This document shows, piece by piece, positions 12,520-63,494 of a stretch of 64,000 nucleotides of DNA (its first letter is position 1; the number at the start of each line of letters is the position of its first letter). Origin of the DNA: Christensenella timonensis (GTDB lineage Bacteria; Bacillota; Clostridia; Christensenellales; Christensenellaceae); contig NZ_FLKP01000002.1 in the NCBI RefSeq assembly GCF_900087015.1, forward strand, positions 1,426,001 through 1,490,000. The letters are read 5' to 3'. A model generated the notes under the pieces. It was not told the origin of the DNA. It worked only from the letters and a program-made list of their open reading frames with translations, and searched no databases. The translations under genes and the position numbers were made by a program.

Positions 12520-13773
12520 TTGGCAAAAAAACTGAACGACATTTACCTGAAAGAGAATAAGGAACTGGAGACGCATAAGATTTTAGTGGACAGCGAAAAG
12601 CCGCCCAAAAAGAAGAAAAAAGGGCCTTCTTCGGTGTGGAATAAGCTGCGCCCGGTCGTTGCGGTGGTGGTCAGCCTGGCGATCGTCGGGGGAATCGTTT
12701 ACGGCGTCGTGGATTATGTGAAAGGCCATTACTTCGACCCGGTCGATGTAAACGATACGACGCCGATATCGGTAACGATCCCCAAGGGTTCTTCTTTGAG
12801 CAAGATTTCAGAGATATTATACGACAATGACCTGATCCAGAACAAGCAAGTATTTAAGTTTTATGTGGATTTTTCAGACATGTCCTCCAAGCTGAAGGCA
12901 GGTACGTATGAGCTTTCCAAAAATATGGATTTTGACGATCTCATCTATGCTTTGCAGCAGGGAAAATCCTCCGCGGGAACATTGCGCATCCAGTTTATCG
13001 AGGGGTTGGGCGTAACGGATTATGCGAACGTCCTGGTCGCGAGCGGTATACTTAAAAACACGACGGAATACCTTGAAGCTGCCAAAACAGGGGAAGGATT
13101 TACGGATTATCCGTTTATCGCGGAGGCAGTCGCGAAAAACGAAGAAAACGGCAACGGCATGCTATATGTCCTGGAAGGGTATTTGTTCCCGGACACCTAT
13201 GATTTCTATACCAATGCCTCTGCTTCCGACGCGATCAAAAAGCAGCTCGACCGTTTTAACGAGATACTCGATATGAAAGCGGAGGGCAAGGAGCAGACCT
13301 ACCGTGAGCGCGCCGAAGAGATCGGAATGTCCATTCACGAGGTTGTGACACTTGCCTCCATCATCGAAAAGGAAGCCAAAACGCCCGACTTCAAGAAGGT
13401 ATCGATGGTGTTCCATAACCGCCTTGATCATGAAATGCGCCTGGATTCGGACGCGACGCTGGCATATGCTTTGGGCGTAAAGAAGCTGGCGCTTACGGAC
13501 GCAGAGCTTGATACTGATTCGCCTTATAACACGCGTAAGATCATGGGGCTGCCCATTGGGCCTATCTGTAACCCGAGTAAGGCGGCGATCGAGGCGGCGC
13601 TTTATCCAGATGAAGATTATGAAGAATACTTCTACTTCACCTTGAAAGACCCCAAAACAGGTGAAATGGTGTTTGCCAAGACGCTTGAAGAGCATGATGC
13701 CAATGTGGCGGAATACGGACACCTGTATGCGGAAGCGGATGCGGAAAACGCTGCGAAGGCGGGAACCGAATGA
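12520..13773 (+). CDS. mltG: Endolytic murein transglycosylase MltG (YceG-like)
   Basis: Cuts nascent peptidoglycan strands and so sets glycan length. The start is a TTG at 12520, chosen because AGGAGAAG sits 7 nt upstream and no ATG is suitable. Of 417 aa, residues 1-43 are a highly charged cytoplasmic tail, one transmembrane helix follows (about 46-66), then a LysM-like region and the YceG catalytic domain with the essential glutamate in ASIIEKEAK (about residue 285). LGLPIGPICNPSKAAIEAAL is the family signature near the C-terminus. The stop overlaps the next ATG (ATGA). Confidence 0.93.
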   Translation: MAKKLNDIYLKENKELETHKILVDSEKPPKKKKKGPSSVWNKLRPVVAVVVSLAIVGGIVYGVVDYVKGHYFDPVDVNDTTPISVTIPKGSSLSKISEILYDNDLIQNKQVFKFYVDFSDMSSKLKAGTYELSKNMDFDDLIYALQQGKSSAGTLRIQFIEGLGVTDYANVLVASGILKNTTEYLEAAKTGEGFTDYPFIAEAVAKNEENGNGMLYVLEGYLFPDTYDFYTNASASDAIKKQLDRFNEILDMKAEGKEQTYRERAEEIGMSIHEVVTLASIIEKEAKTPDFKKVSMVFHNRLDHEMRLDSDATLAYALGVKKLALTDAELDTDSPYNTRKIMGLPIGPICNPSKAAIEAALYPDEDYEEYFYFTLKDPKTGEMVFAKTLEEHDANVAEYGHLYAEADAENAAKAGTE

Positions 13774-14990
13774 GCAGGATAGAGCTGTTGGCACCTGCGG
13801 GAAACAGGGAGTGTATGGAGACCGCGTTTTATTTCGGCGCGGACGCTGTATATATGGCAGGCAAGGATTTTGGCTTGCGTGCTTTCGCGGACAACTTTAC
13901 GGAGGAAGAGCTGCGCATGAGCGTGGCGTATGCGCATGCGCTTGGTAAAAAGATATATATCACAGTGAACGCAGTGCTTTTCAACCACGAGCTGGCCGCG
14001 CTGCCGGGGTACATTTCCCTGCTTGCCGAAATCGGCGCGGATGGGATCATTGTTTCTGATCCGGCTGTGTTGCAGGTTGTCAGGCAAGATGAAATACCGA
14101 TCACAGTCCATCTGAGTACGCAGGCAAATACGACCAATTATTTGTCTGCTTCTTTTTGGCACGAGCAGGGTATAAAGCGTATCGTTTTGTCGCGCGAGGT
14201 GCCGCTTGAAGATATTAGGGCTATTCGTGAGAATACGCCGCAGTCGCTTGAGATCGAAGCCTTCGTGCATGGGGCGATGTGTGTTGCGCATTCGGGGCGA
14301 TGCCTTTTGAGCTCTGCGCTGACGGGGCGCAGCGGCAATAAGGGAGCCTGCGCGCAGCCGTGCCGCTGGGAATATTACCTGTATGAAAAAGGGTATGAAG
14401 GACAGTATTTCAACATCATGGAGGACGAGCGGGGAACGTATATCATGAATTCGCGCGACCTGATGATGATCCGCTATATTCCGCAGCTGGTCGAAGCGGG
14501 CGTGACTTCTTTTAAGATCGAGGGACGGATGAAATCCGCTTATTACGTCGCTTCCGTCGTCAGTGCTTACCGGCGCGCGATAGACGCCTATTATGAGCAG
14601 GGAGCAAACTATGCCTTTGACGACAGGCTGGAAGAGGAACTGGTCAAATCCGCGACGCGTGGGTTTACGACCGGCTTCTTTTTTGGTAATCCGCGGCAGG
14701 CAGGACAGGATACGCAGCGGGATGTCGATTTGCGCAAATATACCTTTGTTGCCAAAATAACAGGTGATATGGCAGGCGGTATGGTTCACGTAGAGCAGAG
14801 GAACAAATTCAGCACGGGAGAAATGCTGGAGGTATTGTCGCCGGAGATACAGGGGGCGACTTTTAAGGTGGAGCGTATCGAAACGCTTACGGGAGAAATG
14901 CAGGAAAGCGCGCCGCACCCGCAGCAGGCCTTGCGGATCAACTGCCCCTATCCATTGAAACCGGGCGATCTGTTGCGTAGGCACGACTGA
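13770..14990 (+). CDS. U32 family protein (collagenase-like peptidase / RNA hydroxylase family)
   Basis: 406-aa TIM-barrel protein of the U32 family. Characterised bacterial members include TrhP and RlhA, which are prephenate-dependent RNA hydroxylases; others were named collagenases. Seen here are MELLAPAGN-like start residues, AVYMAGKDFGLRAFADNF, the core FVHGAMCVAHSGRCLLSS, the cysteine cluster CVAHSGRC...CAQPCRW, and SFKIEGRMKS. ATGA overlap with mltG indicates coupling. The mltG-U32 pairing is common in Clostridia. The exact substrate (tRNA or rRNA) cannot be assigned. Confidence 0.88.
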   Translation: MSRIELLAPAGNRECMETAFYFGADAVYMAGKDFGLRAFADNFTEEELRMSVAYAHALGKKIYITVNAVLFNHELAALPGYISLLAEIGADGIIVSDPAVLQVVRQDEIPITVHLSTQANTTNYLSASFWHEQGIKRIVLSREVPLEDIRAIRENTPQSLEIEAFVHGAMCVAHSGRCLLSSALTGRSGNKGACAQPCRWEYYLYEKGYEGQYFNIMEDERGTYIMNSRDLMMIRYIPQLVEAGVTSFKIEGRMKSAYYVASVVSAYRRAIDAYYEQGANYAFDDRLEEELVKSATRGFTTGFFFGNPRQAGQDTQRDVDLRKYTFVAKITGDMAGGMVHVEQRNKFSTGEMLEVLSPEIQGATFKVERIETLTGEMQESAPHPQQALRINCPYPLKPGDLLRRHD

Positions 14991-49481: not shown

Positions 49482-50615
49482 TTAAATTTCCTCCTTGAAT
49501 TCGTTATGAACATCATTTGCCATTATTTCCGGTCGCCCGTCCGATCTCGGTACGAGCGTTGGTTTACCCGGCGGCTTCATCACAAGTCCGCCAAGGACTT
49601 CATGGAACGTTTTCTTACCCATCAGGCGTTCCATTTCCGTGATGGGGATGAGGCTTCTCCTGTAAATGTCGGTATAGCCGGCATTCTTCGCGGCCTCTGA
49701 TACAGCCTGCTCATCTGTGTACTTTCTCTTTGAGCGTCCCTCGACAAGTTTGTAGGTTTTCCACTTCTTCCCATGTTCGGCAGCTTCATCTGTGGCATAC
49801 TGCATCAGATCTTCAGCCCATTTCATCAGTGGATCGAGATCGGGAAGGATCTCATCAATCTCTTCATCCGAGAGGAGGGGTGGCTTCTGGAATTCGTACT
49901 TTGCGAGAGCGAGCTGCTTTTCGGCTCTTGCACGGCACTTGACTGCTGCTTTGCAAAAGCGGCACCAGTCGCCGGAGCAGTAATCGCCGAGTCCTTCATT
50001 GGCCAGAGCAACTTTAGGTTTTAAGACTTCATCTGCCCATTCCCTGAGGTGTGATACCGTGGTGTTCCAGGTCGAAATATTGTCTCGTCTCGGCTGGAAG
50101 ATGGTCAGCGATACTTCCTCGAAGTTATACAGATCTCCGAAGAGATCCAGTGCGCCGAGTGCATAGAGCATCATCTGCGGGTTTTCTTCTGACTCCACGA
50201 GCACTCCCTGACCGTACTTCAGATCAATGACATGCATCTTGTTATCGGAAACAATGATGCAGTCGCTGGTCCCAAAGCCATGCGGAATGTAAGCTGAAAG
50301 GTCAAGTTCGATCTCCGTGTAAGCCTGAGCATCACTGCAGGTCTGTCTTTCCTTGCCAAGCTGCTCCATGACAAAGTCGCGGTAATCGTCAGTGCATTCC
50401 TCCATCTCGTCTGTGTTGTAATCAGACACCGGACGTTTGCTGCGACGCTTGAGAGCTCGCTTTACTTTGTGGTCAGCAAGGGCATGAGCGGCAGTTCCTT
50501 CCGCTGAAGCAGGAGAGCTGGTATCACTGAAGGACTTCTCGAGCAGTGCGGAAGGCGTACAGTGAAGCCACCTGTGTGCACTGGAAGGAGAGAGCATTGC
50601 GTGATTAACCGGCAT
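49482..50615 (-). CDS. DUF2800 protein (RecB/Cas4-like PD-(D/E)XK nuclease)
   Basis: 377 aa. GFGTSDCIIVSDNKMHVIDLKYGQG holds the D...(D/E)xK nuclease core (broken as GTSDCII and VIDLKYG), QMMLYALGAL follows, and a C-terminal CSGDWCRFCKAAVKC suggests a bound iron-sulfur or zinc site as in Cas4/AddB. Start SPSSAHRWLHCTPSALLE is the family start. Probably acts with the DUF2815 protein in phage replication or recombination. Overlaps the upstream 105-aa gene by 11 nt. Confidence 0.87.
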   Translation of the reverse strand: MPVNHAMLSPSSAHRWLHCTPSALLEKSFSDTSSPASAEGTAAHALADHKVKRALKRRSKRPVSDYNTDEMEECTDDYRDFVMEQLGKERQTCSDAQAYTEIELDLSAYIPHGFGTSDCIIVSDNKMHVIDLKYGQGVLVESEENPQMMLYALGALDLFGDLYNFEEVSLTIFQPRRDNISTWNTTVSHLREWADEVLKPKVALANEGLGDYCSGDWCRFCKAAVKCRARAEKQLALAKYEFQKPPLLSDEEIDEILPDLDPLMKWAEDLMQYATDEAAEHGKKWKTYKLVEGRSKRKYTDEQAVSEAAKNAGYTDIYRRSLIPITEMERLMGKKTFHEVLGGLVMKPPGKPTLVPRSDGRPEIMANDVHNEFKEEI

Positions 50616-51796: not shown

Positions 51797-53716
51797 ATGA
51801 AAATAATCAATATTGGAATTCTTGCCCATGTAGACGCTGGAAAGACGACCTTGACGGAGAGCCTGCTATATGCCAGCGGAGCCATTTCAGAACCGGGGAG
51901 CGTCGAAAAAGGGACAACGAGGACGGACACCATGTTTTTGGAGCGGCAGCGTGGGATTACCATTCAAGCGGCAGTCACTTCCTTCCAGTGGCACAGATGT
52001 AAAGTTAACATTGTGGATACGCCCGGCCACATGGATTTTTTGGCGGAGGTGTACCGCTCTTTGGCTGTTTTAGATGGGGCCATCTTGGTGATCTCCGCTA
52101 AAGATGGCGTGCAGGCCCAGACCCGTATTCTGTTCCATGCCCTGCGGAAAATGAACATTCCCACCGTTATCTTTATCAACAAGATCGACCAGGCTGGCGT
52201 TGATTTGCAGAGCGTGGTTCAGTCTGTTCGGGATAAGCTCTCCGCCGATATTATCATCAAGCAGACGGTGTCGCTGTCCCCGGAAATAGTCCTGGAGGAA
52301 AATACCGACATAGAAGCATGGGATGCGGTCATCGAAAATAACGATAAATTATTGGAAAAGTATATCGCAGGAGAACCAATCAGCCGGGAAAAACTTGTGC
52401 GGGAGGAACAGCGGCGGGTTCAAGACGCCTCCCTGTTCCCGGTCTATTATGGCAGCGCCAAAAAGGGCCTTGGCATTCAACCGTTGATGGATGCGGTGAC
52501 AGGGCTGTTCCAACCGATTGGGGAACAGGGGAGCGCCGCCCTATGCGGCAGCGTTTTCAAGGTGGAGTATACAGATTGCGGCCAGCGGCGTGTCTATCTA
52601 CGGCTATACAGCGGAACGCTGCGCCTGCGGGATACGGTGGCCCTGGCCGGGAGAGAAAAGCTGAAAATCACAGAGATGCGTATTCCATCCAAAGGGGAAA
52701 TTGTTCGGACAGACACCGCTTATCCGGGTGAAATTGTTATCCTTCCCAGCGACAGCGTGAGGTTAAACGATGTATTAGGGGACCCAACCCGGCTCCCTCG
52801 TAAAAGGTGGCGTGAGGACCCCCTCCCCATGCTGCGGACGTCGATTGCGCCGAAAACGGCAGCGCAAAGAGAACGGCTGCTGGACGCTCTTACGCAACTT
52901 GCGGATACTGACCCGCTTTTGCGTTGCGAAGTGGATTCCATCACCCATGAGATCATTCTTTCTTTTTTGGGCCGGGTGCAGTTGGAGGTTGTTTCCGCTT
53001 TGCTGTCGGAAAAATACAAGCTTGAAACAGTGGTAAAGGAACCCACCGTCATTTATATGGAGCGGCCGCTCAAAGCAGCCAGCCACACCATCCATATCGA
53101 GGTGCCGCCCAACCCGTTTTGGGCATCCATCGGACTGTCTGTTACACCACTCCCGCTTGGCTCCGGTGTACAATACGAGAGCCGGGTTTCGCTGGGATAC
53201 TTGAACCAGAGTTTTCAAAACGCTGTCAGGGATGGTATCCGTTACGGGCTGGAGCAGGGCTTGTTCGGCTGGAACGTAACGGACTGTAAGATTTGCTTTG
53301 AATACGGGCTTTATTACAGTCCGGTCAGCACGCCGGCGGACTTCCGCTCATTGGCCCCGATTGTATTGGAACAGGCATTGAAGGAATCGGGGACGCAGCT
53401 GCTGGAACCTTATCTCTCCTTCATCCTCTATGCGCCCCAGGAATACCTTTCCAGGGCTTATCATGATGCACCGAAATACTGTGCCACCATCGAAACGGTC
53501 CAGGAAAAAAAGGATGAAGTTGTCTTTACTGGCGAGATTCCCGCCCGCTGTATACAGGCATACCGTACTGATCTGGCCTTTTACACCAACGGGCAGAGCG
53601 TATGCCTTACAGAACTGAAAGGGTATCAGGCCGCTGTCGGCAAGCCAGTCATCCAGCCCCGCCGTCCAAACAGCCGCCTGGACAAGGTGCGCCATATGTT
53701 TCAGAAGGTAATGTAA
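51797..53716 (+). CDS. tet(W): Tetracycline resistance ribosomal protection protein Tet(W)
   Basis: 639-aa translational GTPase related to EF-G that releases tetracycline from the ribosome. G1 [10 protein letters not shown]2 RGITIQ, G3 DTPGHMDF and G4 NKIDQ are present, as are the C-terminal domains including the loop IV region that reaches the decoding site. Sequence throughout fits Tet(W) (for example [20 protein letters not shown]). AGGGAGGAC precedes ATG 51797. Preceded by the intact promoter, leader peptide and attenuator, so inducible expression is expected. Allele-level naming is from memory of the family, not from a search. Confidence 0.95.
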
Positions 53717-53766
53717 AGATACATAATCGTCAAGACGGCAACAATCAGAAGTTATGGAGGGTAACA

Positions 53767-54534
53767 ATGGAATATAGTAAGGAAGATTTAATGGAAGCAA
53801 AAAAGCAAATTTGGGGAGTGGGAGAGAACATGGGAACAGAGGAAAGTAAAAAAATCTGGGAGGAGAACGCACAATTTTGGGATAATGCAATGGGTGACGA
53901 ATCTAATGAATTTCACAGAGAGGTAGTGCGTCCCAAAGTAACGGAACTTCTATCTCCTAATCCTGCGGATTACATTTTGGATATTGCGTGTGGCAATGGA
54001 AATTATTCTTCGTATCTTGCACAAAGAGGCGCTTCGGTTGTCGCTTTTGATTACAGCAAAAAAATGATAGAATTGGCTAAAAGACGGCAATCACAATATG
54101 CAAAACAAATTGAATTTTGTGTGGCGGATGCGACCGATAGAAAAAGTATATTAGAATTAAAAAGAAATCGAGCCTTTACGAAAGCAGTTTCTAATATGGC
54201 AATTATGGATATTACGGACATTGAACCACTTCTTATGGCTGTTTATGAACTGTTGCAGGAAAGCGGAATTTTTGTCTTTGCAACGCAACACCCTTGTTTT
54301 GTCACGTTGACTGAAAAATATATGACACCGCACAGTTACTATGATATAGCGATTGAAGGGCAACCGAAAGAGCAGATTTATTATCATCGTTCCATACAAG
54401 ATATTTTTAACCTTTGTTTTAGAGCTGGATTTGTCATTGATGGATTTTATGAAGAATGTTTTAAAACCAACAAAGAAATTCCTATGGTAATGATAGTAAG
54501 GCTTAAGAAGGTAAAACGTGATAGCTTAAAATAA
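53767..54534 (+). CDS. Class I SAM-dependent methyltransferase
   Basis: 255 aa from ATG 53767 (GGAGGG 5 nt upstream). Motif I LDIACGNGNYSSYLA (about residue 72) and a later AFDYSKKMIELAK mark the SAM site. A small-molecule or rRNA substrate is not shown. It lies between tet(W) and tet(40) in the same direction, an arrangement seen in Clostridial tet islands, and probably is a passenger or helper of the island. AT-rich compared with both tet genes, so separately acquired. Confidence 0.85.
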   Translation: MEYSKEDLMEAKKQIWGVGENMGTEESKKIWEENAQFWDNAMGDESNEFHREVVRPKVTELLSPNPADYILDIACGNGNYSSYLAQRGASVVAFDYSKKMIELAKRRQSQYAKQIEFCVADATDRKSILELKRNRAFTKAVSNMAIMDITDIEPLLMAVYELLQESGIFVFATQHPCFVTLTEKYMTPHSYYDIAIEGQPKEQIYYHRSIQDIFNLCFRAGFVIDGFYEECFKTNKEIPMVMIVRLKKVKRDSLK

Positions 54535-54539
54535 ATTCA

Positions 54540-54656
54540 GAAATAGGCCCACTTGCAGATAATTCCGTCCCAGGCGTGAGAGGTCTTTCGTCACGACCGT
54601 CTTGACCGCGCCGCTCTCCACAGCGTCCATCATCTCGGTGAAGCCGGGCCGCTGGA
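54540..54656 (-). pseudogene. Serine recombinase fragment
   Basis: Minus-strand frame reads RPGFTEMMDAVESGAVKTVV then TKDLSRLGRNYLQVG, which is the catalytic-domain helix region of TnpX/TndX-type serine recombinases. Only about 40 codons remain; no start or catalytic serine part is present. It marks an old recombination joint between the methyltransferase and tet(40). Confidence 0.75.
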
Positions 54657-54701
54657 GTTTCACAAAACAACCCACTGATTCGTAAAGGAGAATGTAACTT
54701 C

Positions 54702-55922
54702 ATGTTTGCTAAAAATTCAAAGGCATATTCTGTCTACCTGCTGTTCCGATTTGTCTTTTCCCTGGCGGTTTCTATGTCCACAGTGCTTTCCATCGTGTAC
54801 CAACTGGAGGTGGTGCAGCTGGATGCTTTCCAGCTTGTCCTGGTAGGGACGGTTCTGGAGACCTCCTGCTTTCTGTTCGAGATACCCACCGGTGTGGTGG
54901 CGGATTTGTATAGCCGTCGGCGCTCGGTGCTGATTGGAATGTTCCTCTACGGCCTGGGCTTTCTGATGGAGGGTGCGCTACCGTGGTTCGCGCCGGTTCT
55001 GCTGGCCCAGGTTGTCTGGGGTTGCGGTGATACCTTCATCACCGGCGCTCTGGAGGCGTGGATTGCCTCGGAGGAAGAGGACAAACCCATAGACAAGGTG
55101 TTCCTGCGGGGCAGTCAAATGGGGCAAATCGGCGGCGTTCTGGGCGTGGTGCTGGGCACACTGCTGGGAAACATAAACCTGCAAATGCCTGTCATCTTGG
55201 GGGGCAGTTTGTGCTTGTTGTTGGGGCTGGTGTTGGTTCGCATCATGCCAGAAACCAACTTCTCCCCTGCTATTGAGGAACGGCAGGGCTTGCTTAAAGA
55301 CTTTGTCTGCCTGTTCAAGCTCAACCTGGGCTTTGTGAAAGGCTCACCTGTGTTGCTGGCGCTCTTAGCAATCACACTATGCGGGGGACTTGCCAGTGAA
55401 GGCTTTGACCGGCTCTCCACCGCTCATTTTCTGGATGACACGGTAATACCCGTTATCGGGCCGCTGAACAGCGTCACTTGGTTCGGTGTTATCAGTCTTA
55501 TCGGCAGCGGCTTAGGTATTCTGGCTTCTCAGTTGCTCATCGCCCGCATGGAGAAAAAAGGGACTGTCAGCCGAACCAGTGTGGTCATGTCCACCAGCGC
55601 CGGGTATATCCTGTGCCTGGTTCTCTTCGCGGTGGGGCGGAGCTTTTGGTTCATGTTGTTGATGTTCCTGCTGGCGGGGCTTATGCGCACCATCAAGGAG
55701 CCTGTGCTGGCCGCCTGGATGAACGACCATGTGGATGAGAAAATGCGCGCCACAGTCTTTTCCACCAGCGGACAGCTGGACTCTTTCGGGCAGATCATCG
55801 GCGGGCCTATTGTGGGGCTGGTAGCCCAGCAGGTGTCCATACCCTGGGGGCTGGTCTGTACCGCTTTCCTGCTGTTGCCCGCGCTGTTCTTAGTGCCGGT
55901 GGCGGGAAAGAAGCGGGATTGA
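54702..55922 (+). CDS. tet(40): Tetracycline efflux MFS transporter Tet(40)
   Basis: 406-aa, 12-helix major facilitator that exports tetracycline. FEIPTGVVADLYSRRRSVLIG is the MFS motif A region; length and start MFAKNSKAYSVYLLFRFVFS fit Tet(40), a pump found downstream of ribosome-protection genes in Clostridia. AAAGGAG lies 10 nt upstream of ATG 54702. Together with tet(W) it gives two independent mechanisms against one drug. Followed by a good hairpin terminator. Confidence 0.92.
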   Translation: MFAKNSKAYSVYLLFRFVFSLAVSMSTVLSIVYQLEVVQLDAFQLVLVGTVLETSCFLFEIPTGVVADLYSRRRSVLIGMFLYGLGFLMEGALPWFAPVLLAQVVWGCGDTFITGALEAWIASEEEDKPIDKVFLRGSQMGQIGGVLGVVLGTLLGNINLQMPVILGGSLCLLLGLVLVRIMPETNFSPAIEERQGLLKDFVCLFKLNLGFVKGSPVLLALLAITLCGGLASEGFDRLSTAHFLDDTVIPVIGPLNSVTWFGVISLIGSGLGILASQLLIARMEKKGTVSRTSVVMSTSAGYILCLVLFAVGRSFWFMLLMFLLAGLMRTIKEPVLAAWMNDHVDEKMRATVFSTSGQLDSFGQIIGGPIVGLVAQQVSIPWGLVCTAFLLLPALFLVPVAGKKRD

Positions 55923-56261: not shown

Positions 56262-57227
56262 TTACTTTACGCGGATTTTCCATCCAACCTGGATCAGGTT
56301 CACATTTCGGATCAGCGTAGGATTGAGCTTCTGGATTGTGCCGACAGATGTGCCGTACTTCCTTGCAATGGCAGAGAGCGTATCACCGGAACGCACGGTG
56401 TAATAGATCACCTGCGGCTGGCTATGGGCCCCCATCAGCTCATTTACTCTGGTCTGAACAGCGTCATAGCTGTATCCAGCGGCAGCAAGACGGTTCTTCC
56501 TGTCGTCTCCGTTTCCCCATGAACCGCTCAGAACTTCATGCGCGATTTCATCCACGCTCTTTCTTGCCGGCGCTGGTGCCGGAGTGGGAGCAGGAGCCTG
56601 CTGCTTTGCAAACCCGTTGAATCCACCGGTCTTAATAGTGGACGGATAGTCGATGTAGGAAATATCCATATCGACGTTTCCGCTGATGCCGTTTACTGAG
56701 CCGGTGGAAGAATACTGCCAGATCCCGTAAGCCCCGCAATAGGTACATTTGGAAGCATACTGAGCGACCCAATGTGTGAATGGCGTGAGCTTGGAATCAT
56801 CCAGTCTCTCACGGAAGCCGGAATCGGTGGAGCTGTAAATCCCTGCAAAATATCCAGCCGCTTCCAGTGCTCGGCAGAATGCAATCGTAGCTTCCGTAGC
56901 GCCTGCCTTGGCAGAAGGAGCAGTGGCTTCCAGATCAATAAAGACAGGATATTCGAGCTGCTTTCCCTTGAGCTGTGCAAGGAAGCGTTCTGCATCTGCC
57001 TTTCCGTCTGCTGCGGAAGTGCAGCCAGGCCCGACAAAATAATATGCTCCGACAGCGATTCCATTTGCCTTGGCGTTTCTATAGTTTTCTTCCCATCTGG
57101 GATCTGTATAGAATCCAGCATCGGATCCACCAGACTTGATAATCGCAAACTGAATACCGGACGCTTTTACTTTTGCCCAGTCAATGGCTCCCTGCCAGTG
57201 ACTGACGTCAATTCCTCTGACTTCCAT
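56262..57227 (-). CDS. Endolysin: GH25 muramidase with CW_7 and LysM wall-binding domains
   Basis: 321-aa phage lysozyme. GH25 catalytic domain (about 1-190): [25 protein letters not shown] with the catalytic acid, and [10 protein letters not shown] Pro/Ala-rich linker ([14 protein letters not shown]), a CW_7-type repeat ([20 protein letters not shown] and on to [10 protein letters not shown]) and a C-terminal LysM ([20 protein letters not shown]) follow. CW_7 plus LysM on one lysin is an uncommon pairing. No signal peptide, so release depends on the holin encoded upstream. Confidence 0.93.
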
Positions 57228-57610: not shown

Positions 57611-57946
57611 TCATTCCTCCTTTTCTTTACTGTCTGCCGAGAGGGGCAGTTCCTGACACTTTTTGTACAGGGTTTCTCCGGTTCCGTTGCCGCCAAGTGC
57701 CTTGTATGGTTTGTACAGGTACTCAAGATTGCTCCGATCTTCCGGAGTGCAGTATCCCCGAGCAATAAAAAAGCTGCAGGCCTGATAAATCCGGTCGTGC
57801 AGCAGTGCCATCATTCCTTCTTTAATTTCATCGTTCTCCTGTTTTCGCCGGAGCAGCGTCCGCCAAAGCCACGTGAGGACGGCAAGGATCAGGGCAAAGA
57901 GCTCCTGAATCCAGTATTTCAAGATAAAGTCGATCAATGGAATCAC
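57611..57946 (-). CDS. Small phage protein with N-terminal membrane helix
   Basis: 111 aa, N-terminal transmembrane helix (about 5-30, ILKYWIQELFALILAVLTWL) followed by a charged region ending SADSKEKEE. Lies 4 nt upstream of the holin gene; probably part of the lysis cassette (second holin-like or spanin-like protein), but no family is sure. Confidence 0.65.
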   Translation of the reverse strand: MIPLIDFILKYWIQELFALILAVLTWLWRTLLRRKQENDEIKEGMMALLHDRIYQACSFFIARGYCTPEDRSNLEYLYKPYKALGGNGTGETLYKKCQELPLSADSKEKEE

Positions 57947-57954
57947 CTCCTTCC

Positions 57955-58815
57955 TTAATCCTCCACATATACCATCAGGTACTTGTACTTAAGCGTTGCT
58001 TGGTTATAAGCCATCAGAGTTGTCTCATCGTTAGCAACACCATCGGCAAACTTGAAATGCCCGATCTGATCCGCATCTGGATAACTTCTTGTTCCGTTAT
58101 CTTCGCTATCTATGATGCACTTTCCTGTTGTGGCGTAGAACCGGAATCCGTTATAGGTATCCATGTCCGTTGATAGGGTTCCGTCCGAAAGCTGTACTTC
58201 CACGACTTTCAGGCGGATATCCGGATCACTCTTCGTGATTGAGGATCTCTTCAAATGCACAGCGCTGTTTGCGGGATAGGTAATGAAGCCCCTCCCGTCA
58301 TCCACGTCCAGCGCAAGCTTTGTCACCGCAGCGACGTTCTTGATGTGATCGAAGGAGGGCTTGCCTACTTCCGTGACCTCCCCGGAAGATCCTCCAGATC
58401 CGGATACCGGAAGAGTCAGCACCTGTTTGGTTCCTTCCGAGGAGCGGATGGTGAGCTTGCCGTCACTTAGTTCAAAGGTGTAGGTCGTATCCGTAAAGAC
58501 GGCTCCTTCCGGGACATCGGATTTTACGGTATGCCCGCCAAGAGCTTCTGTATTTTTCTGGATGGCATCGGTGTTTTCCTTCACGGCAGCTTTGATTTCC
58601 GTATCGTCATAAGCGGTATCCGTAAAGACCGCATTCTCAGGTACGTCGCAGGCCACCGTGTGTCCGTTCACCTTTGCAGCATTGTCCACAACTCCGTCTC
58701 CGTCGGCATCGAACTCCGCTACTTGTCTCACCTCATCGATCAGCTGGTTCACTGCCTCGCAGAGCCGCTTGATCACCTTGTGCGCTCCACCATACTGAAT
58801 CTTCTTAATCGACAT
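57955..58815 (-). CDS. Phage tail/baseplate fibre protein with repeat
   Basis: 286 aa from MSIKKIQYGG (GGAGG upstream). NGHTVACDVPENAVFTDTAY (about 50-69) and GGHTVKSDVPEGAVFTDTTY (about 93-112) are two copies of a repeat seen in receptor-binding or baseplate proteins of Firmicute phages. The C-terminal half is beta-rich with no named domain. Overlaps the next gene upstream by 11 nt. Confidence 0.75.
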   Translation of the reverse strand: MSIKKIQYGGAHKVIKRLCEAVNQLIDEVRQVAEFDADGDGVVDNAAKVNGHTVACDVPENAVFTDTAYDDTEIKAAVKENTDAIQKNTEALGGHTVKSDVPEGAVFTDTTYTFELSDGKLTIRSSEGTKQVLTLPVSGSGGSSGEVTEVGKPSFDHIKNVAAVTKLALDVDDGRGFITYPANSAVHLKRSSITKSDPDIRLKVVEVQLSDGTLSTDMDTYNGFRFYATTGKCIIDSEDNGTRSYPDADQIGHFKFADGVANDETTLMAYNQATLKYKYLMVYVED

Positions 58816-59599
58816 TGAAGTACGCCTCCTCCCGCTTCTGTGCACCGGTGTTCCGCGAGGCATACCGCTCGAGATCAGTGAGGATCTGGTCCGTAGTATT
58901 GAGGCGGTCCACCAGTTTGTAACTGTCGATATACGGATCAAAGTAAGAAAGATTCTCCGGCTCGATAAACGAAGTGTCCTGCATATCATGAACGCACTTC
59001 CGGCACAGGCTCGTGGCTGCCCTCTCTTCTTCCCGGCTTGTGGCAAACCAGTGTGCATCATGCCATTTGCAATTCCAGTAGCAGTCCGTGTTCGGAATCA
59101 GGATATAGCGGTACTTCTTTGGCAGATTCCTCAACGCATCGAGGTGGCGGGAGAACCAGTAGAACAGCACGATGTGGTCGTACATGGAGAGGTCCCGGCT
59201 CTGAATGTCTTCTTTTGTAAGAACACTTGTGATCGAAAGTGTGACCGAGATCTCCGGATGTCTGCTCTTTGCGGCAATCGCCAGCGCATCCTCGCTGATC
59301 GTGAAGATCCGAATACCAAGGTTGTAATACTTCTCCAGAGCGTCCAGTGTCGCATCTCTTTGCATCAGCACGCAGAGTGGAAGCCCCAACTGCTGCAGGC
59401 ATTTCAGGCGAAGAACATACTCCTCATAGGTTTTTGGATACTCCTCTCTGTTCTCAATGCCCTGTCGTGTGCTCACAGCATCCTCCTTCCATGCCGGAAG
59501 ATAAATGCAGCGGATGTACGAAAAAAGCTCCCGTTTTCGCGAGAGCTTCGGAATAAAGTCGTAGGAAAAGTTGTAAGGGAGTTCATACTGCTTCTTCAT
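58805..59599 (-). CDS. U32-like TIM-barrel protein in the phage tail cassette
   Basis: 264 aa from MKKQYELPYNFSYDF (GGAGGACG upstream). Not an ordinary tail protein: ALEKYYNLGIRIFTISEDAL and RSRHPEISVTLS-like segments, a cysteine cluster NTDCYWNCKWH...SLCRKCVHD, and FIEPENLSYFDPYIDSYKLVDR follow the order of U32 proteins (strand with S..E, cysteine cluster, then PRDL...SFKIEGR). It may bind an iron-sulfur centre and act on RNA or tail protein. Homology is inferred from motif order only. The chromosome has a normal U32 gene at 13770. Overlaps both neighbours, so it is fully part of the tail operon. Confidence 0.6.
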   Translation of the reverse strand: MKKQYELPYNFSYDFIPKLSRKRELFSYIRCIYLPAWKEDAVSTRQGIENREEYPKTYEEYVLRLKCLQQLGLPLCVLMQRDATLDALEKYYNLGIRIFTISEDALAIAAKSRHPEISVTLSITSVLTKEDIQSRDLSMYDHIVLFYWFSRHLDALRNLPKKYRYILIPNTDCYWNCKWHDAHWFATSREEERAATSLCRKCVHDMQDTSFIEPENLSYFDPYIDSYKLVDRLNTTDQILTDLERYASRNTGAQKREEAYFNVD

Positions 59600-60984
59600 G
59601 CGTCCTCCTTGTCTGTCAGCGTATACGTGATCTTCATGGTCTGCGAGGCGTTCTTTGTGATGGGAGACGACAAGTTGTTGATCGTGCCAAGATAGGCGCA
59701 TCGGAGTGCGGTGCGGATCCGGTCGTTGTCGTAATACCCATCGTAGTGATAGGTGGCGAGGAGTTTCCCATCAGAATGAAGGATCGGTGGAATCTCGATT
59801 GCAGCTCCGTCAACCGCCTCCTCGGAGTGAGACGCATCAGGATAAAGAAAGCCTGTCTTGTAGTAGCTGTTCCCGTCCTTCTCGTATCGATACTGGTACT
59901 GAATGCCTCCGTTATAGAGCATCGGCGTCATTCTATCGAAGGTCCCGCTGTTATCAAAGGTAAAAGTCTTGATGTCCACCGGATTGGACAGGTTCACGAT
60001 GTAGATACTGTGCTCGTCATAAGATTTGGCATAGAGATAGCCCTTGTTGACCACAATCGAATAGTCATTCCGTGAGGCCAGATGTACCCCGGCTAATGTG
60101 ATCACTTCCTCCGGCTGTTTCTCAAAAGAAAGATCGGACATCTTATACTTCGTGAGATAGAGCTTCGCATCGTCCTTCTCGTTCCCCTCATCGTAATAAT
60201 AGTTGTAGTAGGTGTTCCCGTAAGAGGTGTAGCTGCTGATCCGGTTGTTCTGCGTGATGAGGTAAAGGTAGCCGTCTGTGCCGGGCATCCAGTATTTTGC
60301 CGGGCCGATATTGCTAAAGTTCTGGTAATCCGGAAGCTTAAGCGTCGTCACCGTTTCATACGGGAGAGTAAAGGAACCATAGGTCTGGTCTGCGACCTTC
60401 ACTGCATAGGGATCAAATCTGCCGCGCTGCACCGTCACACCATCCGAATTCAGCCAGTAGACAAACTCATCCTGAACAAGGAATGGTCTTCCGTTATGCT
60501 CTTTGTTCTCGATGGTATCCATGTCACAGTAGAAATCCCCGCAAACCTGTCTCTGGAAAGGATTCACCCCGGCATAGGCACTCGTCAGGGCAACCGACTG
60601 GATGGTTCCGTTTGCCTGCGCAGTGCCGAAGTCCCAAACGGAAACATAGCCGGTATCCGTTTTATGTGTCTCAATCGCATTCAGGGATCCCCGCATCGCA
60701 TCATCCGTGTTGGTATCCCGGGAAGCGTAGCCCACCAGTTTTGCCTCCGTCGGGAAGTTCGTGTTGTTCACGTCCTCAGTGAGCTTTCCATCAAAAAGCA
60801 GGATGCCGCCGAGCGCATTCTTTGCGATGGGAAAGACATTGTTGTTCATTGATCTTCCGATCATGGTCTGGAAAGCAATCAGCTCCTGCACCGCATTGGT
60901 GACAAGGTTGTCTTTCTCATATTGAAATTCGCGCTCCCCGGTCTTGGCATTAAAGAGCTCGATTGTGGTATGTCCTTTGATCAT
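59596..60984 (-). CDS. Phage tail-tip/receptor-type structural protein
   Basis: 462 aa from MIKGHTTIELFNAKTG (the frame extends upstream without ribosome site). Starts with a baseplate-like module (ELFNAKTGEREFQYEKDNLV), then a long Tyr/Asn/Asp-rich region with beta-propeller-like repeats (KYWMPGTDGYLYLITQNNRI). Likely part of the adhesion device. ATGA overlap with the next upstream gene. Confidence 0.65.
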   Translation of the reverse strand: MIKGHTTIELFNAKTGEREFQYEKDNLVTNAVQELIAFQTMIGRSMNNNVFPIAKNALGGILLFDGKLTEDVNNTNFPTEAKLVGYASRDTNTDDAMRGSLNAIETHKTDTGYVSVWDFGTAQANGTIQSVALTSAYAGVNPFQRQVCGDFYCDMDTIENKEHNGRPFLVQDEFVYWLNSDGVTVQRGRFDPYAVKVADQTYGSFTLPYETVTTLKLPDYQNFSNIGPAKYWMPGTDGYLYLITQNNRISSYTSYGNTYYNYYYDEGNEKDDAKLYLTKYKMSDLSFEKQPEEVITLAGVHLASRNDYSIVVNKGYLYAKSYDEHSIYIVNLSNPVDIKTFTFDNSGTFDRMTPMLYNGGIQYQYRYEKDGNSYYKTGFLYPDASHSEEAVDGAAIEIPPILHSDGKLLATYHYDGYYDNDRIRTALRCAYLGTINNLSSPITKNASQTMKITYTLTDKEDA

Positions 60985-63110
60985 TCTTCCACCTCTTTCG
61001 TAAAGATCTGGATGTCCGTAAGTGTTCCTTTCTCGTGGATGATTGCCTTCAGCTGAATGGAGCCATTGAGCTTTTCTTCCCACTGCTTTTTGGTGATCTC
61101 CTTCATTGCCGGAGCAAACATGCCATAGGACTCCTTCGTGGTATCCGGCGTGATCCAGCCATTTGCATATTCCCACCAGGTACTGCCGTGATCGAAGGAG
61201 GCGAGGAAGTTCACGTTATTGCTGTCGCAGTTCGAAGTAACGGAGAGGATCTGATCTGCAGTACAGTCAGATGTCACAAGTTCCGCGATCGTCACACCAT
61301 CCTTTAACTTCCATGTGCCATCCTTCATCTCAATCTCATCGCTGCTGTAGGTGACGGTATCGAGATGCTCCGTATCAAACCGGTGCAGGAACTTCACCGT
61401 ACCGATGGTCCCAGCGATCGGCTGCAGCACACTGGATAACTGCATGGATGGAACGATATCGGAATAGCCTGTAGTTTCAGGCGAGAGCAGGCCAACGGTT
61501 ACTGAGGCATCAAAACTGCGATACACTGGAAACAGGTTCATCTCCGGAACCGTATCGTAAACGGAAATGGTTCCGTCCCAAGCGCCGCTTCCGGCAAGAC
61601 CCTGTCCTGCCATGTAGGCTCTTGCATCTCCACGTGCGATGTGGCAGCTGCCACCGGCCATTGAGAGCCAAACTTCAAAGTTCCCCGTAAGGTTTGCCGT
61701 GCTGTTCCAGGTGAAGAGAAGATGCAGAAGGTGCGTCCCATCCGGCAGCATTTCCACCGGAACATAATCCTTGACCTCCTCCCCGTTCAGGTAGTACGTA
61801 ACGACCATCACCGCGTCGGTATCCGATATTATTTCTTCCGCTTCTGTCTCTGTCGTGTCGAGCGTCAGCTTGATCTCCGCATGGAAGTCGATGTGGGTAT
61901 CCTTCACCGTGACATAGCGGATATCAATGATCTTGGCTTTTGCTGTATCCGCGATGTCGTAATCAGCGGCGTTCTGGTAATCGTAGTAGCGAATATAGTC
62001 CTGATTCTCATTGGAGGACAGGATGCCCTGCAGGTTCTTGTCCGTCTTAGACTTTGCCGATGCCAGAGCCGGATCCTGCCCCACGCCCTGCATCGTGAAG
62101 GACTTGTTGTACTGGAACGTGAACTTTGTCATGCAGAAGAGCTTGTCTTTATCGGCAAGCCCATCGGTAAAGCGGAACACGTCCATGAGATCATAGGCGG
62201 GATTCCCGATCAGCTCCGCCTTAAACGGCACGTAGTCAACCTTCGAAAGTGCGGTGAGGATTGCCCTTCTCTGTGCGTCCTTTTTCTCCTCCACACCATA
62301 CTGGAGGAAGGGATCCGAGCCGATGTTGTAGGTAAGGCCGTCATCCGTATCGAGGGCATAGTAGGATGTGCTCTTCGCATCGATATTCACAACGGAGAGG
62401 CCGGTGTATCTGGTTGAGAAATCGGAGAACTCACATCCGGTAAAACGATGTTCGGTGTCGATCTCATCAATCACAGTCTGACCATAAGATTTGACATAGA
62501 TCTTCCCATCCCGTCCGGCATAAACATTCGCAGCTATCGATGCAGCAACCCACGAAACAAAGTCCCGCCAGGTTTCGATATCGGATTCGCTGTAAAGGGA
62601 AAGCTCATCAGAGCCGTTTGCCATTGCTGCAAACGCTTCACTGGTAGTTCCAAGAGAAAGACCACAGGCTGTACAGGCTGTCAGCATCAGGTTGTAGGCG
62701 GTACCGTTGATGGACGTGACGGAGCAGTTCTTATCGAACTTTGCCATGTGATCGTAGGCTTTGATCACCACACCGGAAGCAGTATGTTTCGCAGAGTCTA
62801 TGGTGAACACGCCAAGCGGCACATCCTCGAAGCTTCCGTCTGCAAGCCGCATTCCGAAAACCGGTGCGATCTCCTGGTCCTTCCAGCTATACCGAGGAAT
62901 CTGCAGGTTCATGAGCGTCACATCTAGTTCCCCGATGTAGACCTGTCCGATCTGAACGGAAGAATCATCCGAGCACTGGTTCGTGATGGAGAAGGATCCG
63001 GATAGGATGTTGTCATCCGTAAAGGACACCCTCCCGACTTTTCCAGTCATCCGGAATCTCTGAACGGGCTGCTTCATGGCAGTCTTGTATTGTTCACTTA
63101 CAGCGTACAT
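60981..63110 (-). CDS. Phage tail-tip/baseplate hub-like protein
   Basis: 709 aa. The N-terminal 350 residues (GKVGRVSFTDDNILSGSFSI, VYIGELDVTLMNLQIPRYSW, VPLGVFTIDSAKH) match the tail hub/endopeptidase-like family downstream of the distal tail protein in siphophages; the C-terminal half is beta-rich and may bind carbohydrate. No peptidase residues are evident. Precedes the fibre genes in normal siphophage order. Confidence 0.8.
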   Translation of the reverse strand: MYAVSEQYKTAMKQPVQRFRMTGKVGRVSFTDDNILSGSFSITNQCSDDSSVQIGQVYIGELDVTLMNLQIPRYSWKDQEIAPVFGMRLADGSFEDVPLGVFTIDSAKHTASGVVIKAYDHMAKFDKNCSVTSINGTAYNLMLTACTACGLSLGTTSEAFAAMANGSDELSLYSESDIETWRDFVSWVAASIAANVYAGRDGKIYVKSYGQTVIDEIDTEHRFTGCEFSDFSTRYTGLSVVNIDAKSTSYYALDTDDGLTYNIGSDPFLQYGVEEKKDAQRRAILTALSKVDYVPFKAELIGNPAYDLMDVFRFTDGLADKDKLFCMTKFTFQYNKSFTMQGVGQDPALASAKSKTDKNLQGILSSNENQDYIRYYDYQNAADYDIADTAKAKIIDIRYVTVKDTHIDFHAEIKLTLDTTETEAEEIISDTDAVMVVTYYLNGEEVKDYVPVEMLPDGTHLLHLLFTWNSTANLTGNFEVWLSMAGGSCHIARGDARAYMAGQGLAGSGAWDGTISVYDTVPEMNLFPVYRSFDASVTVGLLSPETTGYSDIVPSMQLSSVLQPIAGTIGTVKFLHRFDTEHLDTVTYSSDEIEMKDGTWKLKDGVTIAELVTSDCTADQILSVTSNCDSNNVNFLASFDHGSTWWEYANGWITPDTTKESYGMFAPAMKEITKKQWEEKLNGSIQLKAIIHEKGTLTDIQIFTKEVEE

Positions 63111-63125: not shown

Positions 63126-63494
63126 TTAGAACTCTTCCAGATCGAAGCTTACGGTGTAGAGTCCATTCGTTCCTCTCGTCTTTTCCGAGTTCTTCTCAGG
63201 ACCGGTTTTGAAATTTCGCATCCGCATTGTCCGGGTCTTATAGTCCTGTGTTTTCAGGTCATATAGCTTCACCTGAATGGAATCCTTGTCCCGGAACTCA
63301 GCAAACTTTGCAGCCCAGCGGCTGGAACATTTAAAAGAAGCAGAAACGGAGAGCTTGTCATATCTTGTGACAATCACCTGATCCGTTCCTGCCTCGGTTT
63401 GATTGGTATTTTCGATAACAGCGTAGCTTTCTTCCCAGCTTTCCGGAGTGAAGAGCTTAACGTCATCGAAATAAATCGGATATTCGCTCAGCAT
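63126..63494 (-). CDS. Phage tail completion/distal tail-like protein
   Basis: 122 aa, starting MLSEYPIYFDDVKLFTPESW and ending YTVSFDLEEF. Size, composition and position between the tape-measure and hub genes suggest a distal-tail or tail-assembly protein; sequence family is not certain. Confidence 0.65.
   Translation of the reverse strand: MLSEYPIYFDDVKLFTPESWEESYAVIENTNQTEAGTDQVIVTRYDKLSVSASFKCSSRWAAKFAEFRDKDSIQVKLYDLKTQDYKTRTMRMRNFKTGPEKNSEKTRGTNGLYTVSFDLEEF

Follow-up and report, generated by a model that had tools for sequence, protein, structure and literature searches.

A divergent U32-superfamily-like accessory gene in the tail cassette of a Christensenella timonensis prophage

The gene and its place in a late operon

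What does a gene whose product resembles U32 enzymes do among the tail genes of a prophage? These enzymes represent a recently recognized route of O2-free hydroxylation, with RNA and quinones as the known substrates in the available part of a review (PMC11574389). The question is raised by an open reading frame at 58805-59599 of the window, i.e., the whole stretch of 64,000 nucleotides of the Christensenella timonensis genome that was analyzed. A first-pass annotation, made from the sequence alone, considered a U32-type enzyme in a tail cassette unexpected. Phage U32 genes as such are already present in 218 of 50,697 phage records, counting T4-like relatives with at least 60% identity to the one in Serratia phage 92A1; with any match at E ≤ 1 there are 226 records. 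The version found in tail cassettes forms a module of its own, which is optional. No paper dealing with U32-type genes of tail cassettes was found by title or beginning of the abstract, in a search with thin coverage of subscription papers and preprints.

The frame lies on the minus strand and consists of an ATG start, 264 codons for amino acids, and a TAA stop. The genes described earlier as overlapping it on both sides do so by 4 nt and 11 nt: the gene start shares ATGA with the upstream gene (59596-60984, minus strand, 462 aa, phrog_19291), named here tailA, and the gene end shares 11 nt with a downstream gene (57955-58815, minus strand, 286 aa). Both had been called tail genes. The position in a tail cassette is right, but tailA matches PHROG families of unknown function only, and the 3′ neighbor, which has no Pfam or PHROG family, was named fibre-like by eye. 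The tail role of tailA is suggested by its position, and that of the fibre-like gene by its position and by how its sequence reads. Among the neighbors, only the gene for a large tail protein (60981-63110, minus strand) matches a PHROG named “tail protein” (phrog_6616), next to phrog_23052 of unknown function. The same strand encodes a small tail-module protein (63126-63494, phrog_1194) and a small protein before the endolysin (57611-57946, phrog_4105), both matching families of unknown function, as well as an endolysin with a LysM-type C-terminus (56262-57227; NCBIfam matches, the glycosidase part named by eye). The major head protein and the large terminase subunit are encoded beyond the window, also on the strand of the U32-like gene. 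The “tail protein” PHROG, endolysin, head protein, and terminase, all on one strand, place the gene in a tailed prophage, within its late operon.

Homologues of the U32-like gene were found on 16 viral and 3 bacterial contigs, and 7 more viral contigs were reached via tailA. In all 16 siphophage-type loci (L001-L012 and L014-L017, several of them near-identical, e.g., L003/L010) the gene overlaps the frame upstream by 4 nt, and this frame is a tailA homologue. The dN/dS of the U32-like gene was 0.10 (L001), 0.07 (L003), 0.10 (L004), and 0.08 (L007), while dS was saturated in the comparisons with L008 and L015. Such a constant overlap, together with dN/dS of 0.07-0.10, is more than chance would give; the gene at 58805-59599 is real, and purifying selection acts on it. 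Between two subgroups of loci the identity is 47% for the U32-like gene versus 33-34% for tailA. A tblastn search with the window protein against the 50,697 phage records gave no match, and the L019 and L008 homologues used as queries likewise gave none. In one copy (L002, 8001-8837) there is a 15-codon insertion near residue 96, which by eye partly repeats the adjoining residues.

Fold, profiles, and the signature of a putative metal site

The first-pass annotation had set a tail structural fold against its own U32 reading. This fold did not occur: the AlphaFold2 model, built from 13 homologues, is a TIM barrel (pLDDT 79, pTM 0.80), and a Foldseek search placed the U32 protein 5d88 first in the PDB (E 3.1e-5, TM 0.52). 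The first viral match was the “Peptidase” of Escherichia phage OLB35 (E 8.1e-8). In VIA-align the superposition with 5d88 (Z 13.6, rmsd 3.9, 191 aligned) was tied with those of unrelated TIM barrels, many of which scored nearly equally among the 50 matches shown (Z 12.0-13.6). The pLDDT falls below 50 at residues 172-179, 181-188, and 203-210, the metal-site region being among the worst of the model. By itself, the predicted structure supports the barrel and not the family; with the barrel scores so nearly tied, it is the sequence profiles that decide the family. The structure model of tailA was poor (pLDDT 53).

Direct searches did not assign the window protein to U32. No family was matched at E ≤ 10 either in Pfam, PF01136 included, or in NCBIfam, with its TrhP, UbiU, and UbiV models. 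Nothing fell below E 0.01 among the PHROGs (best E 0.019), and phmmer against PDB sequences gave a single chance-level match (E 0.72). The L008 homologue matched UbiU alone in NCBIfam (E 0.088). The profile-profile comparison with U32 proposed earlier was performed with hhalign. The family profile (A2) aligned with the bacterial protein L021, which profile A1 had retrieved beforehand (E 4.7e-8), at a probability of 96.7% (E 3e-10) and with the T4-like protein P0003 at 82.6% (E 1e-5). The values were 35.9% for the cyanophage protein P0004 and 30.5% (E 5e-4), a weak direct similarity, for 30 canonical U32 proteins. Two other TIM-barrel families gave 0.5% and 0.2%, and the reversed profile at most 1.9%. 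Against a 19-row cyanophage profile the value was 88.6%, with 8.8% for the reversed control.

The homology to U32 can also be followed through intermediates. A profile made of siphophage copies only, with the database size set to 100,000, finds L274 (E 1e-14), which has no Pfam or PHROG match, and L273 (E 3.8e-9), which matches PF01136 with 49.5 bits (cut-off 22.4) and phrog_5757 with E 6e-26. The same profile found no ORF at E ≤ 1 in the TrpA and AP-endonuclease-2 control loci, and none at E ≤ 1 in the 30 canonical U32 loci (L022-L051); after inclusion of L018-L020, one of these 30 was reached at E ≤ 1 (L049, E 0.002). The wider profile A4 includes P0003, L021, and the cyanophage proteins and hence leans towards U32; it matched in 73 of 398 genomes at E ≤ 1e-4, with many weak matches in frames of about 725-890 codons, one of which coincides in position with a PF01136 match in G432. 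The U32-like character claimed earlier is therefore borne out as remote homology, by fold and by profiles via L273, but not as a direct Pfam or NCBIfam match. We regard it as nearly certain that the window protein is a divergent homologue of the U32 superfamily. A radical SAM assignment was also considered, but Pfam gave no match (PF04055), and the CX3C stands at residue 173 instead of forming an N-terminal CX3CX2C; a third cysteine two residues after CX3C was present in L018 only.

The canonical Fe-S motif of U32 proteins is CX6CX15CX3C according to the part of the review at hand (PMC11574389). By regular expression, all 30 canonical proteins have it, as against none of 25 copies of the U32-like gene (L018-L020 included, L005 and L010 excluded). 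Instead, NX2CX3CX3-5H occurs in 25/25 copies, in 19/19 cyanophage proteins (18 of 80 fetched loci, and P0004 of metaG-MbCM1), and in L021, versus 0/30 canonical proteins; this expression covers the N, the two C, and the H alone, the later cysteine being read by eye. P0003 lacks the motif and has a longer spacing. The counterpart of the U32 motif FKIEGR is KLVDR (codons 228-232, 58904-58918, minus strand), as alignments and motif search indicate, and the pattern KxxxR, located towards the C-terminal end of the barrel, is found in 25/25 copies, whereas the same expression finds 15/30 canonical proteins. Of the cysteine cluster noted at first, all four residues (C173, C177, C199, and C202) exist, but only C173 and C177 are present in every copy; C199 is kept in most, and C202 is lost in L003/L010 and in L202. 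In an enlarged alignment the C202 column (11/23) looks misaligned, and the direct motif search was relied on instead. In a 15-row alignment of groups that are 19-50% identical to the window protein, the residues R151, N170, C173, H183, P214, K228, and R232 are invariant (15/15), and C177 is nearly so. A putative metal site can be placed at codons 173-202 (58994-59083, minus strand), with N170 just upstream, and it would probably be built from C173, C177, H183, and C199. Judged by these signatures, the window protein is not a canonical U32 oxidase, and NX2CX3CX3-5H marks an apparently uncharacterised branch, with members among cyanophages and in bacterial genomes as well as in tail cassettes.

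The protein encoded at 13770-14990 (plus strand), named earlier as the chromosomal copy, is a true U32 protein (PF01136, E 3.9e-98) with CX6CX15CX3C, but no pairwise similarity links it to the tail gene (BLASTP E 15). Canonical TrhP, RlhA, and UbiU/UbiV (PF01136) share with the window protein the TIM barrel, predicted here, the KxxxR motif, and remote homology; they differ by their CX6CX15CX3C Fe-S motif and their RNA or quinone substrates.

Linkage to tailA and relatives in other settings

It had also been asked whether homologues sit in tail cassettes of other phages. Beyond the window, the U32-like gene adjoins tailA in 23 loci, i.e., in the 16 siphophage-type loci and in 7 further ones (L196-L200, L202, and L204). 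The latter come from a tailA family of 367 confirmed stretches, of which the best 80, most like the tailA of the window, were kept; this sample is centred on the window’s own tailA, and its counts express no frequency. Fourteen of these 80 loci carry the U32-like gene beside tailA (7 already seen and 7 new), and 66 are without it, among them four that end too early to show its presence or absence (L190, L205, L230, and L246). In 59 non-carriers tailA is followed by a gene for a small membrane protein, named by eye as holin type, while in L201 and L203 (the latter by eye) the fibre-like gene follows tailA directly. In a midpoint-rooted tailA tree of 81 tips, from which 7 duplicates, pieces below 400 aa, L190, L203, L230, and L246 were left out, the carriers fall into two groups (13/14 and 8/8), the second of which is sister to 59 non-carriers. 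Read from this tree, the U32-like gene was either gained twice or lost, and in both cases it is optional. It is no core part of the tail, as tails such as that of L201 are present without it. The existence of tailA-bearing relatives lacking the gene points to an accessory gene and not to a tail building block, and we consider it likely that its product is an accessory enzyme of the tail module. As a separate matter, 22 tailA positions distinguishing carriers from non-carriers were considered as target sites and rejected, since clade ancestry explains them equally well.

A different tail setting is provided by L018 (IMGVR_UViG_3300012662_000012), a phage contig of 108 kb in which the U32-like gene lies between a fibre-repeat gene (PF22337, E 2e-11) and a gene for a glycine-rich protein (PF12810). 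It contains four in-frame TAG codons and yields a full-length homologue when they are read as Gln; this phage probably recodes TAG, and it is apparently unrelated to the tailA phages. In two distant homologues, on contigs of 142-188 kb (L019 and L020), the U32-like gene is located among three radical-SAM genes, with no tail genes near. Such a cluster is possibly a peptide- or protein-modification island. Two of the three radical-SAM genes encode just 112-128 aa (L019, 2541-10472; Pfam on L019, the ORF list of L020 being the same).

The T4-like “peptidase” (phrog_5757; Serratia phage 92A1, Enterobacter phage Entb_45, and Mosigvirus GADS24) is likewise a phage-encoded member of the U32 superfamily (PF01136, E 1.8e-11) and can be aligned with the window family over 251 columns to the C-terminal FKVSGRTGTTEYI. 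However, it has 389 aa, its cysteines are spaced more widely, and a further cysteine cluster stands at its C-terminus; its gene is found outside tail cassettes, in an operon of nucleotide metabolism that includes thymidylate synthase. A chorismate mutase is encoded close to it in two of three loci inspected: in Entb_45 the U32 relative is followed directly by the chorismate mutase gene and thymidylate synthase, and in 92A1 a chorismate-mutase-like protein, 40% identical, is the product of the second gene after it, whereas the sole gene between the U32 relative and thymidylate synthase in GADS24 is not similar to chorismate mutase. Chorismate mutase makes prephenate, and its nearness renders a prephenate-using phage U32 enzyme plausible in these phages. 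In the T4-like loci L105 (3989-6092) and L052 (8914-11283) the gene of the U32 “peptidase” lies close to those for chorismate mutase and thymidylate synthase and to a sugar-phosphate isomerase gene. This cluster would fit a prephenate-dependent hydroxylation of cytosine in those phages for which arabinosyl-hydroxycytosine has been reported, as it has been for some phages according to the accessible part of one paper (PMC12923530). Glycosylated 5-hydroxycytosine reportedly occurs in viral DNA.

The cyanophage proteins of phrog_1458 (574 aa in metaG-MbCM1) share NX2CX3CX3-5H and KxxxR with the window protein (19/19) but are longer, with an additional C-terminal part. A tail-fibre-assembly gene begins 1.8 kb downstream in metaG-MbCM1; most of the other neighbors tested match families without a known function. 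In 28 of 80 cyanophage loci, many of them short contigs, the fetched flank includes a homologue of this assembly gene, which, with so loose a check, is no more than suggestive. The intermediate L273, from the same phylum, is a PF01136 member with NX2CX3CX5H, like the window gene; it differs in having 389 aa and in its location between a glycosyltransferase gene and a carrier-protein gene, a setting that suggests a natural-product pathway. In this stretch (292-2942) the glycosyltransferase is of the GT28 type, and the carrier protein is an acyl-carrier protein. L276, L278, and L280 each contain a U32-like gene (about 395-400 codons) behind a gene of 452-464 codons, and the next gene 3′ of the U32-like gene looks alike in L276 and L280.

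A possible modification of the tail

The reading that we tentatively prefer, with a probability of roughly 0.4, is that the gene encodes a compact, divergent U32 TIM-barrel enzyme, which by analogy would be an O2-independent oxidase or hydroxylase acting on the adjacent tail protein or fibre. Characterised U32 oxidases hydroxylate quinone precursors as well as RNA bases in an O2-independent manner, and the RNA modifications fail when prephenate is lost genetically, as stated in the part of the review that was available (PMC11574389). The late-operon position and the ATGA overlap favor a virion substrate. In the mechanism proposed, the overlap suggests translation coupled to that of tailA, and the U32-like protein would probably be made late, given its place in the operon. 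The enzyme would probably have a metal site of C173, C177, H183, and C199, and it would most likely catalyze an oxygen-independent oxidation in a presumably anaerobic setting. Hydroxylation would be the first choice, with prephenate, for instance, as the organic oxygen donor; the C. timonensis genome encodes a chorismate mutase. The target could be the product of tailA, the candidate substrate, or of the fibre-like gene that follows, and the effect a tuned adhesion or stability. Against an enzyme acting on the tail speak the missing canonical Fe-S motif, the position of L019 and L020 away from tail genes, and the nucleotide-metabolism operon of the T4-like relative. A tail-protein hydroxylase in the strict sense is a guess that we would put forward with more hesitation. 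Proteins are not among the known U32 substrates (tRNA, rRNA, and a quinone precursor) in the accessible part of the review (PMC11574389). An optional U32-type gene overlapping a gene of the tail cassette constitutes a natural enzyme-substrate pair for asking whether the superfamily modifies proteins, and the same pair bears on whether phages of anaerobes chemically modify their tails.

A broader proposal, which we find doubtful, is that such genes represent a new class of O2-independent protein hydroxylases with a 3Cys-1His, possibly Fe-S, site, which, in anaerobes, would hydroxylate tail or receptor-binding proteins after translation and would have been acquired in two or more phage lineages that are apparently unrelated. 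They would then be the anaerobic counterpart of the 2OG-Fe(II) oxygenases described in marine phages, as far as the portions at hand of two papers go (PMC3037559; PMC12774648). Bacteria and viruses are said to lack prolyl hydroxylases for collagen in the part of another paper that was accessible (PMC3368898).

The strongest of the alternatives, although an unlikely one, is a U32-like enzyme whose target, in the lysogen or late in infection, is host RNA or something else outside the virion, and whose gene occupies a permissive slot behind a tail gene. Accessory genes commonly sit in slots of this kind. The T4-like relative in its nucleotide-metabolism operon and the location of L019 and L020 outside tail cassettes agree with this explanation, and characterised U32 enzymes modify tRNA, rRNA, and quinone precursors. 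However, the slot is identical in the two tailA groups, with the ATGA overlap in 16/16 loci, and the apparently unrelated L018 keeps its U32-like gene beside a fibre-repeat gene.

It is also rather improbable that the barrel is catalytically dead or repurposed, helping the tail fibre as a chaperone or assembly factor. This would be consistent with the location of the gene between tailA and the fibre-like gene, with its occurrence alongside some tails only, and with the lack of conservation of the fourth cysteine, but in L201 tailA and the fibre-like gene are retained although the U32-like gene is absent, and seven residues are invariant in 15/15 rows across 19-50% identity. A protease processing a tail protein, in line with the old “collagenase” reading of U32, is very unlikely: the family name and the “peptidase” annotation of phage relatives would speak for it, whereas no protease residues were recognised in the protein, by eye there are no Gly-X-Y repeats in the two neighboring genes, and the characterised members are oxidases in the part of the review available (PMC11574389). 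A glycosidase or other TIM-barrel enzyme on the virion, digesting the host surface, is the least credible explanation. The near-equal structural scores of many barrels would speak for it, but the sequence profiles point to U32 rather than to either of the two further TIM-barrel families compared, and 5d88 ranks first in Foldseek.

A role in DNA hypermodification, as suspected for the T4-like relative, was also considered; reading through the ORFs listed around the tail module brought up no such gene, save a DNA-methyltransferase-like ORF (by eye). Farther downstream of the tail module, on the strand opposite to the late genes, 51797-55922 (plus strand) carries genes for Tet(M/W/O/S)-family ribosomal protection, for a methyltransferase, and for Tet(40) efflux. 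This cluster sits between the endolysin gene and the gene at 49482-50615, look-alikes of which come, by eye, after the lysis genes in L007 and L008.
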